Source: Picosynechococcus sp. PCC 7003 (GTDB taxonomy: Bacteria; Cyanobacteriota; Cyanobacteriia; Cyanobacteriales; MRBY01). Taken from it: a stretch of DNA of 64,000 nucleotides. The stretch spans positions 1,630,661-1,694,660 of the forward strand of contig NZ_CP016474.1 in assembly GCF_001693255.1 (NCBI RefSeq), written 5' to 3'. This document shows, piece by piece, positions 4,194 to 10,238 of the stretch. The position numbers and the translations under genes were made by a program. The notes beneath the pieces were generated by a model, which did no database searches, had not been told where the DNA came from, and was given only the letters and a program-made list of their open reading frames with translations. The stretch's first letter is position 1, and every line of letters starts with the position of its first letter.

Positions 4194-4460
4194 ATGGCAG
4201 CCGAATTATTACGAGTCAGCCTCGGAAACTTTATCCAGATTTATCTTCTGCTTCTCATTGTCCGCATTCTTCTCAGTTGGTTTCAGACCGCAGATTGGGC
4301 AATGCAAGTGATGGGTTTTCTGAGCCCTGTGACCGACCCCTACCTTAACCTGTTCCGTTCGTTTATTCCGCCCCTAGGCGGGTTGGATCTGTCTCCCATT
4401 GTGGCGATTTTCTTGCTCCAGGCTGTTGGTGGTGTCCTGGGTGGTGGCGCTTTGTTCTAA
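4194..4460 (+). CDS. YggT family (Ycf19-like) integral membrane protein
   Basis: 88 residues with two hydrophobic helices (about 10-30 and 62-84) and the family motif RILLSWFQ between them, followed by P-rich NLFRSFIPPLGGLDLSPI. This is the YggT/Ycf19 pattern. Homologues are implicated in membrane organisation, division and, in plastids, thylakoid or nucleoid arrangement. The reading ends with the TAA at 4458-4460. It is the last core gene before the accessory island. Confidence 0.85.
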   Translation: MAAELLRVSLGNFIQIYLLLLIVRILLSWFQTADWAMQVMGFLSPVTDPYLNLFRSFIPPLGGLDLSPIVAIFLLQAVGGVLGGGALF

Positions 4461-4739
4461 AGGCCCTAAGTTTTTGGCGATCGCCCCCCATTGTGATTTT
4501 TCAGTTGGGGGCATCAGTTCTAGGAAATTTTTCAAGTTTTTTCCACAAAAACAGTTCTTTTTCCACAAAAATTTGGAAGTTTTCCACAAGAAACCCGGCC
4601 AAATCTTAAGGAAACGTAAAAAACTACTTTGGCGATCGCCATCGTCATTGAGAAAAAATTGGCTGAAGCGTGATGAAAATTGAGATATTTTTCGTACTAC
4701 AAAAAGCAGTGGGTCTTTAAGAGCGTTCTTCGCTTCAGA
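4461..4739. other. Non-coding AT-rich stretch downstream of the YggT gene
   Basis: No convincing gene. An overlapping plus-strand frame exists, but its translation is low-complexity and K/F-rich. The stretch holds one HIP1 site near 4630 and the cluster of three TTTTCCACA 9-mers described separately, followed by A/T-rich sequence. Confidence 0.6.
4539..4588 (+). repeat. Three evenly spaced DnaA-box-like 9-mers
   Basis: TTTTCCACA occurs exactly at 4539-4547, 4559-4567 and 4580-4588, all on the plus strand and spaced 20 and 21 bases apart, about two helical turns. From memory this 9-mer is the DnaA box consensus used in Synechococcus origins. The same-face spacing suggests cooperative binding. 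Whether this is an origin, a DnaA-titration site or part of a mobile element cannot be told from sequence. No dnaA or dnaN gene is present in the window. Confidence 0.55.
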
Positions 4740-5003
4740 TTAATCTGACAAACTCTGCAACTCATCAGTAATAAGATTTTGCCATTCTTCATCACAGTGA
4801 GTATTTAAGTGAATCGATGAAACGAGGAGTTCCGATAGGATTTTTCCCCGTTGGCGATCGCTCAAATCAGTGAGCTGTAATTGATGAATGAGAGAAATTA
4901 CTTGTTGACATTCCTCTTGAAGTTCTAAGAGCAATGCATTTAAGGTTTCATTTTGAGTGTTGATTTTTTTTTCAACAATCTGCATTAGTTTTTCCCTAAT
5001 CAT
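4740..5003 (-). CDS. Small predicted helical protein of unknown function
   Basis: 87 residues, apparently almost all helical, with a heptad-like N-terminal half (MIREKLMQIVEKKINTQN onward) and an acidic end. I recognise no domain. It starts 14 bases after the PIN toxin stop and reads in the same direction, so it is probably the last gene of the accessory minus-strand run. It could be a third toxin-antitoxin component or an unrelated passenger. Confidence 0.5.
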   Translation of the reverse strand: MIREKLMQIVEKKINTQNETLNALLLELQEECQQVISLIHQLQLTDLSDRQRGKILSELLVSSIHLNTHCDEEWQNLITDELQSLSD

Positions 5004-5017
5004 TCACTGTCGGAATT

Positions 5018-5431
5018 TTATCGAGGGACACAAACGATGCCCAAGCCTGCCATCTGTCGAATATGCTCATCAAAGGCAAAAATCTCTGGTATTTGAAGCC
5101 GCTGAGACATAATTAACAAGGAGCAGTCTGTGTAGCTCCATTTTTTATCATCGTATTTTCTGAAGGTTTCCCAAATGGCATCATCATCACTGTCAGATAG
5201 ATGGCAATATTGATGTTCTGTACGCAAAATTTCACCCAGTTGTACGGAAGCTTTACTAGAAACTCTTGTACGAAACCATGTCACAGTTTCATCAAAGACC
5301 GTTTTTAGTATTACCCATTCTTTTTCTGGATGACTCACTACATATTTTCTGGCGGTTTGGTTATGAGTTTCTGTTTTGACGAAGAACGCAATTAATGCAG
5401 AGGTATCTACGAGAATTTTCGATGTAGACAT
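5018..5431 (-). CDS. PIN-domain protein, VapC-like toxin
   Basis: 137 residues when started at the ATG at 5431 (MSTSKILVDTSALIAFF). An in-frame extension to 5500 would overlap the antitoxin and is unlikely. PIN-domain acidic residues are visible: D in ILVDTSAL, E in VFDETVTW, D in SYTDCSLL and D in FAFDEHIRQ. PIN proteins of this kind are Mg-dependent ribonucleases, usually held inactive by an antitoxin. The start is 2 bases after the stop of the upstream small gene, which fits a translationally coupled toxin-antitoxin pair. Confidence 0.82.
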   Translation of the reverse strand: MSTSKILVDTSALIAFFVKTETHNQTARKYVVSHPEKEWVILKTVFDETVTWFRTRVSSKASVQLGEILRTEHQYCHLSDSDDDAIWETFRKYDDKKWSYTDCSLLIMSQRLQIPEIFAFDEHIRQMAGLGIVCVPR

Positions 5432-5433
5432 TG

Positions 5434-5673
5434 TTAGTATAAGTCTCGATCCAGATTTTCTGCGTAGTTTGTAGTACCTGTTTGATCTGCCAATTCCCAA
5501 GAATTTGGGTTTGTGACCTCAAATGTTCCACATAGCTCCCATGTCTTTGTCGTTGTAGGAGATCTTTTTTCTAAATATTCATTCAGTGCTTGTAAAAGAA
5601 GAGTTTGTAAAGGCTGGTTTTGTGCCTCTAGTTTCTGGATCACATCGTCTGGAATATTGACAATAACATTCAT
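5434..5673 (-). CDS. Putative antitoxin paired with the PIN toxin
   Basis: 79 residues. The N-terminal part (MNVIVNIPDDVIQKLEAQNQ) looks like a short strand plus helices, as in antitoxins with ribbon-type DNA-binding ends. The C-terminal tail is polar and ends ENLDRDLY, a form common in toxin-wrapping antitoxin tails. Position immediately before the PIN gene with a 2-base gap supports the role. I do not recognise the exact antitoxin family. AT-rich flanks and lack of HIP1 suggest transfer. Confidence 0.65.
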   Translation of the reverse strand: MNVIVNIPDDVIQKLEAQNQPLQTLLLQALNEYLEKRSPTTTKTWELCGTFEVTNPNSWELADQTGTTNYAENLDRDLY

Positions 5674-5774
5674 AAATTATCTAAAGATAAAACATTTATT
5701 ATTTAAGTATTCCTTTGAGTGGTTAATATTACATTTAGAAAAACTCAAAATTAGTAGACTTTTAATATTCAAAT

Positions 5775-6470
5775 CTAAGTAAACAATTTTAAGAAATTCT
5801 TGATATCCTCCAGCAAAGTATGTTCAAAGTCAAAAATATCTTTATGCTTCAAAATGTATTCTAATTCACTAACTGAGCATTTACGTCCAGCCTGTTTAGA
5901 GTCTTTTTTTGAGCGTGTATCATACCGCAGATAAATACTTAGCCAAAACTTATCGAATTCTTTGAGAGATAGTTTTCCCTCTTCTCCCATGCATTCTTTT
6001 AAACAATTTTGCCATGAGCTTAAACAATCTGCATAAGTAGAGTCGGATTTTTTAATAGCTTTTAATAGAGTTTCTAATTCTCCCGAGTTATTGACATTGG
6101 TAAAATAAGTACCTATTTCTAGATCAATATCCTGCACAGATAAAGAATACAGATTTCCGACTTCTTGAATTATACTTATGTCTCCAAAAACTGTGCTTAG
6201 ACAATCATTGACTAGCTTTAATTTTTCTTCTTGAGAATCATAATCCTGATCGATAATAATCCCTATCTTAGATATATTTCTTTTGAATAAGCTATCGGAT
6301 AGACTTTTGATGGCTTTCGTCAATTTATCTGAATTCAATCCACTCAGACATTCATAATTATCAATGTTAATAGGAGAATCAACTATCAATTCATTAATTT
6401 GCATTTTTTCTATAAGAGCCTCGAAGAAAGCCTTATCATTTTTGCTTTCAACAATCAAAATATTTGCCAT
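5775..6470 (-). CDS. TOPRIM-like (DUF3226-type) protein, partner of AAA ATPase
   Basis: 231 residues. The N-terminus has ILIVESKNDKAFFEALI, with the glutamate expected of a TOPRIM fold, and near residue 70 to 80 the sequence IGIIIDQDYDS supplies the DxD acidic motif. This is the arrangement of DUF3226/DUF4435-like nucleases. It starts 8 bases after the stop of the ATPase gene, so the two are co-transcribed. In the known PARIS defence system an AAA ATPase (AriA) sequesters a TOPRIM effector (AriB), and OLD-family nucleases fuse similar parts. Defence is inferred, not shown. Confidence 0.7.
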   Translation of the reverse strand: MANILIVESKNDKAFFEALIEKMQINELIVDSPINIDNYECLSGLNSDKLTKAIKSLSDSLFKRNISKIGIIIDQDYDSQEEKLKLVNDCLSTVFGDISIIQEVGNLYSLSVQDIDLEIGTYFTNVNNSGELETLLKAIKKSDSTYADCLSSWQNCLKECMGEEGKLSLKEFDKFWLSIYLRYDTRSKKDSKQAGRKCSVSELEYILKHKDIFDFEHTLLEDIKNFLKLFT

Positions 6471-6478
6471 ATAAATAA

Positions 6479-7564
6479 CTACTCTCCCCGAACAGGCTTG
6501 TGATGCTCCAGTTCGTATTGTAAATCATCAATACTTCTGGTAATAGCGATTGTTTTTTGAGTGCGAGGATTTTCTGCTAATTCGATATATGCTCCTTGTT
6601 CAGAATATTTTTTTCCTGCTAAAGCAAATGCTTTGATCATTTCTAGGCTGTGTGTTGTTGCAAATATTGTCACATCAAATTCCTTAGAAAGTCGAAATAA
6701 TAGCTCCCAAAATTCTTTTTGATTAGTATGGTGAATACCATTCTCTATTTCATCTACAAAAATGACTTTGTTATCCTCACTTAAAATCTCTAGTGCAATA
6801 GATGAACATCTATATGTTGCATCACCAAACAAAGAAATTGGGAAGCCTCTTTTCTGATTGTCTTTTCTTAAAAATAGAGTTGGTTCAACAAATGAATATG
6901 TCTCAGCTTCTACAATGGAAGGATCTAAAATTTGAATCATTTTCAAGAAGTCATCACTTTTTCCTTCATATTTTACTCTGTCATACTTTTTTGCAATTTC
7001 CTGACCTGATATAGGCACAGATGATGGAATCACAGGTATGTCAATCTCATCGGGAAAATCTGGAGAATAAAAGCCGCGAGAATGAGCTACTAAATTTTTC
7101 TTGATAATTTCTTCTGTATTGATCTGTTGTTGTATTTGTAAGATTGATATCGAAGAATTGTCTTCAGAAATAATTCCCAATAAGTCTTTTATGTTTTCAT
7201 CTTCATTAAATATTTCAGACTTTAAAGATTGGGCAACTAATAATTTGATCTTTTTACATTGACTGTCAAATTCCCCTTGCAGGCAAATCTTCTTCGTTAT
7301 ATCTTGATTGTAAAAAAGACTATTCCATGCTTCTTTGGGCTGCTTTTTTAAGGAATCAGAGGATTGTTTTCTTGCCTTTTTTATGCCAAGAGTGCTATTG
7401 GGGTGAGGATAAAAAAAGAGTAACAATGCTTCTAGGAGAGAAGTTTTTCCGATATTGTTTTTGCCTCCAATTAAATTAACTTTTTTGAAGCCATCTACTT
7501 TTAAAGATTGGAAACTACGAAAATTTTTGATTTCTATAGTATTTTTCATTCTTTTGATTCTCAT
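6479..7564 (-). CDS. OLD/RecF-type AAA ATPase (AAA_15/AAA_21-like)
   Basis: 361 residues (356 if started at the ATG at 7549). It opens with IEIKNFRSFQSLKVDGF and a Walker A GGKNNIGKTS, the classic SMC/RecF/OLD beginning. The Walker B is KVIFVDEIENGIHH, followed by the switch histidine in FATTHSLEMI. Before the Walker B, LFGDATYRCSSIALEIL stands where an ABC-type signature would be. There is no fused nuclease; the TOPRIM protein is the next gene. Codon use is AT-rich, unlike the flanking acnB gene, and HIP1 is absent. Probable role: sensor or regulator in an anti-phage system. Confidence 0.8.
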   Translation of the reverse strand: MRIKRMKNTIEIKNFRSFQSLKVDGFKKVNLIGGKNNIGKTSLLEALLLFFYPHPNSTLGIKKARKQSSDSLKKQPKEAWNSLFYNQDITKKICLQGEFDSQCKKIKLLVAQSLKSEIFNEDENIKDLLGIISEDNSSISILQIQQQINTEEIIKKNLVAHSRGFYSPDFPDEIDIPVIPSSVPISGQEIAKKYDRVKYEGKSDDFLKMIQILDPSIVEAETYSFVEPTLFLRKDNQKRGFPISLFGDATYRCSSIALEILSEDNKVIFVDEIENGIHHTNQKEFWELLFRLSKEFDVTIFATTHSLEMIKAFALAGKKYSEQGAYIELAENPRTQKTIAITRSIDDLQYELEHHKPVRGE

Positions 7565-7631: not shown

Positions 7632-10238
7632 CTATTTTGCGCCAACGGGCATACCGAGGAGATCCTCAATCTTCGGCATATCTTCCAGGGCAATTACGCG
7701 ACCCTCATCCTCAAAACCATCAATCTCATTGAAATTGAGGTAACGGTACAGATCACCCTTAAACGGATCAATCTTCTCAGAGACGATCGCCTGATATTCT
7801 TCCACCGTGGGAATCTTGCCGAGGAGCGCACAAACTGCCGCCAATTCCGCAGAACCGAGGTACACTTGCGCCCCCTTACCCATGCGGTTGTTGAAGTTCC
7901 GGGTCGAAGTGGAGAAGACCGTTGCATTATCTTCCACACGGGCTTGGTTCCCCATACAAAGAGAACAACCAGGCATTTCTGTCCGTGCCCCTGCCGCCGC
8001 AAAGACACCGTAAACCCCTTCATCCCGGAGTTGCTTTTCATCCATACGGGTGGGCGGACAAATCCAGAGACGACCTTTGACAACACCAGCCCCTTCAAGG
8101 ATTTTCGCTGCGGCGCGATAGTGACCAATATTCGTCATACAGGAACCGATAAAGACCTCATCCACTTTGTCCCCTGCACATTCAGACATCAGTTTGACGT
8201 TGTCAGGGTCATTGGGAGCCGCCACGATAGGTTCCTTGATCTCGTTGAGGTTCACCTCGATCACATCGGCATATTCCGCATCAGGATCGGCAGACATCAG
8301 AGAAGGATTCGCGAGCCATTCCTCCATCTTTGCAATGCGGCGCAGCAGAGTCCGGGCATCGGAATATCCTCGCGCAATCATGTTCTTCATCAGCACGACA
8401 TTAGACCGCAGATATTCCGCCACGGTTTCTTCACTGAGTTTAATCGTCGAACCAGAACAGGAACGCTCGGCAGTGGCATCGGTCAATTCAAAAGCTTGCT
8501 CCACCTTGAGATCCGGCAGACCTTCCATTTCCATGATCCGGCCATTGAAAACATTGATTTTGTTCTCTTTGCCGACGGTCAGTTTGCCCTGTTGCATCGC
8601 CACCCAAGGAATCGCATTGACGATATCGCGGAGGGTGACACCGGGTTGCAGTTCGCCCGTAAATTTCACGAGGACAGACTCAGGCATATCGAGGGGCATC
8701 ACACCTAATGCCGCCGCAAAAGCCACCAAACCGGAACCTGCGGGGAAGGAAATCCCTAACGGAAAACGAGTATGGGAGTCGCCACCGGTCCCAACGGTAT
8801 CGGGCATCAACATCCGATTCAGCCAAGAGTGAATAATGCCATCGCCCGGCTTGAGGGCAACACCGCCACGGGTCGAGAAAAAGTCCGGTAACTGTTTGTG
8901 GGTTTTAATGTCTACGGGCTTCGGATAGGCTGCGGTATGACAGAAAGTTTGCAGGGTCAAGTCTGCGTTGAAACCGAGACAGGCCAATTCTTTCAACTCG
9001 TCACGGGTCATGGGGCCAGTGGTATCTTGGGAACCCACAGTGGTCATGATCGGCTCGCAGGATGTCCCTGGACGCACGCCGGGGAGACCGCAGGCTTTCC
9101 CGACCATTTTCTGGGCGAGGGTAAAACCTTTACCAGTATCTTCTGGCATCGAAGGACGCACAAACAATGTTGTTGGCTCAAGTCCGAGGGCTTCACGGGT
9201 TTTGTCGGTGAGGGCACGGCCAATGAGAAGGGGGATCCGACCGCCTGCGCGAACTTCATCAAGAATCGTTTCGGGCTTCAGTTCAAAAGTCGAAACGGTT
9301 TCGCCTGCTTCGTTGGTAATTTTGCCTTCATAAGGATGGATGGTAATGACGTCGCCAGTTTTGAGTTTGCTGACGTCACATTCAATGGGTAGTGCGCCGG
9401 AGTCTTCAGCGGTATTGAAGAAAATCGGGGCAATTTTCCCACCGAGGATATAGCCCCCTGCTTTTTTGTTGGGGACAAAGGGAATTTCGTGGCCGAGGTG
9501 CCATAGTACGGAGTTGATCGCTGATTTCCGGGAGGAACCGGTACCGACCACATCACCAACATAGGCAACGGGATGGCCTTTTTGCTTCAGTTCAGCAATG
9601 GTTTCTAAGCCCTCTGGCATTTTGGACTCTAGCATTGCGAGGGCATGGAGGGGAATGTCGGGGCGCGTCGTGGCGTGGGGCGCGGGGGAAAGGTCGTCGG
9701 TGTTGGTTTCACCGGGCACCTTAAAGACAGTAACGGCGATCGCCTCGGGAACTTTGGGCTTGCCAATAAACCAAGCGGCCTCAGCCCAGGCATCAATGAC
9801 TTGTTTGGCGTAGGGGTTGGTAGCGGCGAGCTCGAGGACATCGTTAAAGGCGTCGAAGACCAACAGGGTTTTGCTCAGGGCAGTGGCGGCGGCACTGGCA
9901 ATATTGCTGTCGTTGGCTTTGAGCAATTCCACCAAAGATTGGACGTTGTAGCCACCGACCATCGTGCCCAGGAGATCTACTGCGCCTTGGGGACTGATCA
10001 GGGGACAGGTAATTTCTTTTTTAGCAATGCCTGTGAGGAATCCGGCTTTGACATAGGCAGCTTCATCAACGCCGGGGGGCACGCGATCGCGCAGTAAACT
10101 CAGCAGTTCTTCTTGTTCTGCTGTGGGGGGATTTTTGAGGCGATCGCAGAGTTCGGAAGTTTGTTCTGCGGTGAGAGGTAAGGGGGGAATTCCTAATTGG
10201 GCGCGTTCAGCGGCGTGTTTGCGGTAGGCTTCTAGCAT
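7632..10238 (-). CDS. acnB: Aconitate hydratase B
   Basis: 868 residues, full AcnB length. The domain order is that of AcnB: N-terminal HEAT-like domain, swivel domain (about 165-380, with [17 protein letters not shown]), then the catalytic part. Iron-sulfur cluster cysteines are seen in [11 protein letters not shown] and [11 protein letters not shown] near residues 700 to 770. It interconverts citrate and isocitrate in the TCA cycle, supplying 2-oxoglutarate for nitrogen assimilation in cyanobacteria. A long antisense frame over its 3' half is a shadow. Confidence 0.97.

Follow-up and report, generated by a model that had tools for sequence, protein, structure and literature searches.

In E. 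coli, datA, DARS1 and DARS2 are small non-coding loci that carry a few DnaA boxes, lie outside oriC and have long been kept in place (PMC4585315), and DnaA in vivo favors closely spaced boxes, at 2–3 bp spacing (PMC11317965). The DnaA-box clusters of B. subtilis and a cluster in Streptomyces coelicolor also lie outside oriC, are described as near it, and restrain initiation by binding DnaA (PMC5295017, PMC4585315). In cyanobacteria the published DnaA box is TTTTCCACA, the consensus at the oriC of S. elongatus (PMC4674748), and this oriC is bound by the DnaA of PCC 7002 in ChIP-qPCR (PMC7198777). PCC 7002 itself is reported to initiate replication at one site near dnaA and not to need DnaA for this; loss of dnaA leaves growth and replication unaffected, and the protein is scarce (PMC7198777). 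For DnaA-box loci outside oriC in cyanobacteria, or for DnaA boxes at guaA, we found no precedent in the open-licence literature, which is weak evidence of novelty.

The locus compared with these systems here lies in a 64,000-nucleotide stretch of the 3.06-Mb chromosome of Picosynechococcus sp. PCC 7003 (G000:C1:1630661-1694660), hereafter the window. An intergenic region between convergent genes (positions 4461–4739, delimited from the open reading frame table and by alignment with the relative G002) holds what we call element A: exact copies of TTTTCCACA on the + strand at 4539–4547 (box 1), 4559–4567 (box 2) and 4580–4588 (box 3), so that successive boxes start 20 and 21 bp apart. The initial annotation had reported these three same-strand 9-mers at this spacing and judged chance very unlikely, and both points stand. 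No other copies occur in the window, for which shuffling predicts ~1.1. The genome-wide scan proposed at that stage returned 51 copies (30 forward, 21 reverse; 26 for a reversed-pattern control), with no second triple and one further same-strand pair, with a step of 21, at C1:2371171. At the observed copy density, ~2e-6 same-strand triples with both steps ≤23 bp are expected, and in the 404 kb around the element no other 9-mer occurs three times without overlap on one strand inside 50 bp, except the one-base-shifted TTTCCACAA. A chance repeat was rejected on the basis of the genome scan, the 404-kb control and the expected number of triples. Rfam RNA elements gave zero matches in the window.

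Small, non-coding, outside oriC and long kept in place, element A resembles the E. coli loci. It differs from them in having three perfect tandem boxes two helical turns apart, in place of boxes separated by 2–3 bp. Nor does it keep a fixed distance from the origin: in the finished genomes for which this was read off, it lies ~0.15 to 0.48 of the chromosome away from dnaA. We know of no IHF or Fis in cyanobacteria. Location outside oriC is shared with the B. subtilis and S. coelicolor clusters, but element A is near guaA or, as here, 305 kb from dnaN (C1:1330244). With cyanobacterial oriC, the dnaN-linked cluster, it has the 9-mer in common, and the same initiator would be expected to bind; unlike that cluster, which in the relatives has boxes in both orientations at 9–12 bp steps beside dnaN, it has a single orientation, steps of 20 and 21, and no replication gene. 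Clustered boxes outside oriC at a conserved intergenic locus are what is found at loci of the datA, DARS or DnaA-box-cluster type, which by analogy appear to be the nearest described systems, as a functional parallel only.

Position and orientation of the boxes are kept in relatives. Among 46 non-redundant loci, the 11-bp spacer between boxes 1 and 2 (4548–4558) is conserved in length and little in sequence, and the 12-bp spacer between boxes 2 and 3 (4568–4579; AAAATTTGGAAG here) tends toward GA(A/T)TTTTGnnAG. The base before each box is usually G or C, and the sequence 3′ of box 3 is usually A/T-rich (61% A+T over 80 bp). A search for the exact geometry box-N11-box-N12-box in one genome per species, across 84,980 prokaryote species, returned 50 stretches, and 47 of these come from records titled cyanobacteria. 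The other three are from Spirochaetaceae, Ruminococcus and Blastocatellia MAGs; dnaA and dnaN were unmatched in the surrounding stretches retrieved for them. Box pairs with a gap of 9–14 occur in 94 of 120 relatives (one match for the reversed pattern), and three-box runs in 58 of the 120 order-level and 122 of 291 class-level genomes (none for the reversed pattern). When all gaps from 1 to 31 were counted by hand in 60 relatives, the ~150 same-strand pairs had steps of 11–12 bp (~26) or 20–23 bp (~120), with four others and none at 13–19. Since nearly all steps fall in these two classes, spacings of one and two helical turns are preferred. The element is not universal, as 44 of 100 relatives with dnaA lack the exact run. 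Within the Picosynechococcus group all three boxes are letter-perfect in 5 of 6 genomes, while spacers and neighbors have diverged; G003, a draft genome of the same genus, has only the second cluster described below. Element A is neither a product of chance nor peculiar to Picosynechococcus sp. PCC 7003.

Occurrence of the boxes follows that of dnaA. The DnaA box-binding domain (PF08299) was detected in 100 of the 120 genomes; 92 of these have box pairs, vs 2 of the 20 without it (Fisher p ~2e-13, ignoring shared ancestry), and 56 vs 2 have triples (p ~1e-4, with the same disregard of ancestry). Three families (f13, f17 and f26) hold both dnaA states, and the contrast within them fits the rule. 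Eight genomes with dnaA and no box pairs include G023, which has a dnaA fragment, and G034, which is 61% complete. The G023 fragment (C97:4576-4674) has an internal stop; this free-living relative lacks all box pairs, and its loss of dnaA is apparently recent. The two dnaA-less genomes with pairs are G027, a draft genome for which dnaA is present in a congener, and G045, which has 21-bp iterons. In genomes without dnaA, and in those with dnaA and no triple, the guaA 3′ region is free of boxes, apart from one in G027, and the usual cation-efflux neighbor is likewise gone, so that this comparison does not tell the two groups apart. The identification of the 9-mer in the initial annotation as the Synechococcus DnaA box is supported by the published cyanobacterial consensus, by the ChIP-qPCR results and by the disappearance of pairs from dnaA-less genomes. 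Element A belongs to a DnaA-box locus that is conserved in geometry and position, tracks dnaA and is separate from the dnaN-linked cluster, and DnaA very probably binds there.

How such a site might work is suggested by its layout. On three high-affinity boxes that share one helix face, two turns apart, DnaA would probably assemble into a short, ordered, phased oligomer. At a quiet site between convergent genes, DnaA could be sequestered or its ATP/ADP state changed, and by buffering or converting DnaA in this way the element would set the amount of free, active protein and so control DnaA activity. The best reading, by analogy with datA, DARS or the B. subtilis clusters, is of an extra-oriC DnaA-control locus acting by titration or on nucleotide state. 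Titration, one of the roles first proposed, is compatible and is the leading candidate among them. That element A is an extra-oriC locus dedicated to binding DnaA, sequestering it or changing its nucleotide state, seems to us somewhat better than an even proposition.

In the usual cyanobacterial context the element lies between a CDF-type cation-efflux gene on the + strand and guaA on the − strand, as we take these neighbors to be from their recognizable sequences. Both genes converge on the triple, whose orientation relative to them is never reversed, and the end of guaA is often 50–300 bp away. In Picosynechococcus the element has been relocated beside a gene of what is presumably the yggT family of membrane proteins, away from CDF and guaA. 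Here that gene (4194–4460, + strand) ends 78 bp before box 1; it is a neighbor also in G001 and G002, upstream of the element in G002 as in PCC 7003, while in G001 the element is flanked by yggT and a pentapeptide-repeat gene. G004 and G005 have glgA upstream, and in G004 the opposite flank again carries a pentapeptide-repeat gene. Bound DnaA could regulate adjacent transcription, or block converging transcription as an insulator or terminator, an idea favored by the siting, in most genomes, between genes whose 3′ ends converge; DnaA does regulate promoters in E. coli (PMC11317965). A second conserved cluster is placed as a promoter site might be. In PCC 7003 it consists of two exact boxes 21 bp apart (C1:2371171-2371200), ahead of a DUF2811 gene and then pth, and many relatives have equivalent pairs or triples on the same strand 200–550 bp upstream of DUF2811 genes, often with a near-box such as TTTCCCCA between both exact boxes. 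For element A, however, CDF and guaA both point inward and so leave no promoter site, and the triple is kept while its neighbors differ by lineage (guaA/CDF, yggT, glgA/pentapeptide). We therefore consider a transcriptional role unlikely.

PCC 7003 is close to Synechococcus sp. PCC 7002, a member of the same genus, whose behavior bears on what the element could do in this genus. Because loss of dnaA is harmless there, a role in replication control is hard to see in Picosynechococcus, and the element could be a former DnaA site that is now a mere relic where DnaA is dispensable, dnaA being deletable without phenotype and its product scarce (PMC7198777). The letter-perfect boxes in five of the six genomes of the group, despite diverged surroundings, argue against simple decay, and we find a mere relic quite unlikely. 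If element A is a DnaA-control locus, it may in Picosynechococcus support some task left to DnaA, for instance the coupling of replication state to gene expression; alternatively, selection may still be maintaining it as a relic.

The initial annotation had also raised the possibility of an unannotated origin. As it had noted, no replication genes are near: dnaN is at the distance given above, dnaA (C1:1) is about half a chromosome away, and the neighbors include no helicase gene; the guaA-linked triples of relatives are likewise not adjacent to dnaN or dnaA. A set of three cyanobacterial DnaA boxes followed by A/T-rich sequence is nonetheless what an origin might present, and three such boxes are also described for the oriC of the circular chromosome in Cyanothece 51142 (PMC4674748). 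Moreover, PCC 7003 has no box cluster within 20–40 kb of dnaA or beside dnaN: at most one box lies near dnaN in this genome and in G001, G002, G004 and G005, and a single exact box lies in the stretch from 40 kb ahead of the dnaA end of C1 to 20 kb past it. In PCC 7002 replication starts in the region homologous to this clusterless dnaA region. The dearth of boxes near dnaN and dnaA in the group fits the DnaA-independent initiation of PCC 7002, where marker frequency has a single peak, at dnaA, in the presence or absence of the gene (PMC7198777). Many other genomes (G007, G016, G036, G041, G043, G047, G063, G068, G076, G092 and others) carry the triple in addition to a separate dnaN-linked cluster, which matches the description of cyanobacterial oriC (PMC4674748). 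GC skew, computed over the 404-kb stretch and the dnaA region and irregular in this cyanobacterial group, showed no origin-type switch at the element within the 404 kb; local values go from slightly positive to about zero, and the cumulative maximum, at 1,682,655, is 47 kb away and terminus-like if anything. Of the features of a cyanobacterial oriC, then, the TTTTCCACA cluster is present, and an adjacent dnaN or dnaA and a skew switch are absent. Because it is extra to the dnaN-linked cluster, has no skew switch and belongs to a group in which PCC 7002 initiates near dnaA, element A is very probably not the chromosome origin, and an origin of any kind, main, secondary or dormant, is very unlikely.

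Scarcely credible is the last of the early proposals, an integrated plasmid that carried in the defence-like genes and had the element as its iteron origin. The AT-rich, variable island next to the element and the iterons of dnaA-less G045 might speak for this. It was rejected because a search of 72,556 plasmid records returned no match to the element, because G001 has the element without the island, and because across cyanobacteria the element is a vertically retained part of the chromosome, beside guaA. No rep gene was found among the neighboring open reading frames, and the spacers differ from one another, unlike those of G045, where exact 21-bp iterons containing TTTTCCACA occur on a 26.7-kb contig (C2) with replication-type genes close by. 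The island occupies a variable slot (4740–7564, − strand, defined by Pfam and by comparison with G001 and G002), which is AT-rich and lies between the element and an 868-aa aconitase-like gene at 7632. Its genes encode an unassigned 87-aa product, a PIN-domain protein with a small partner (perhaps toxin-antitoxin-like), a DUF3226 protein and an AAA_15/AAA_21 ATPase; in G002 the slot holds a 1507-aa sacsin-domain protein instead, and it appears to be a hotspot at which defence-type genes insert. As congener G001 has no defence-like genes at this place and G002 has a different gene, the island joined the element or replaced an adjacent gene and was not its carrier; the element was not brought by these genes or by a plasmid.

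We return, then, to element A as a DnaA-control locus outside the origin. It may represent an undescribed cyanobacterial class of such loci, with three same-strand boxes two turns apart, which Picosynechococcus keeps, together with the DUF2811-linked locus, as its sole DnaA-box clusters after its origin lost dependence on DnaA, the protein acting there as a non-initiator; we offer this fuller proposal tentatively, at somewhat less than even confidence. As far as our searches show, element A is the first cyanobacterial candidate for a control locus of the datA/DARS kind, and it provides a compact natural system for the effect of box spacing on DnaA assembly. Cyanobacteria of the PCC 7002 type keep an intact dnaA that can be lost without harm. 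Element A and the DUF2811-linked cluster are most probably the sites at which Picosynechococcus DnaA still acts, and as the likeliest DnaA sites they make the retention of dnaA directly testable.
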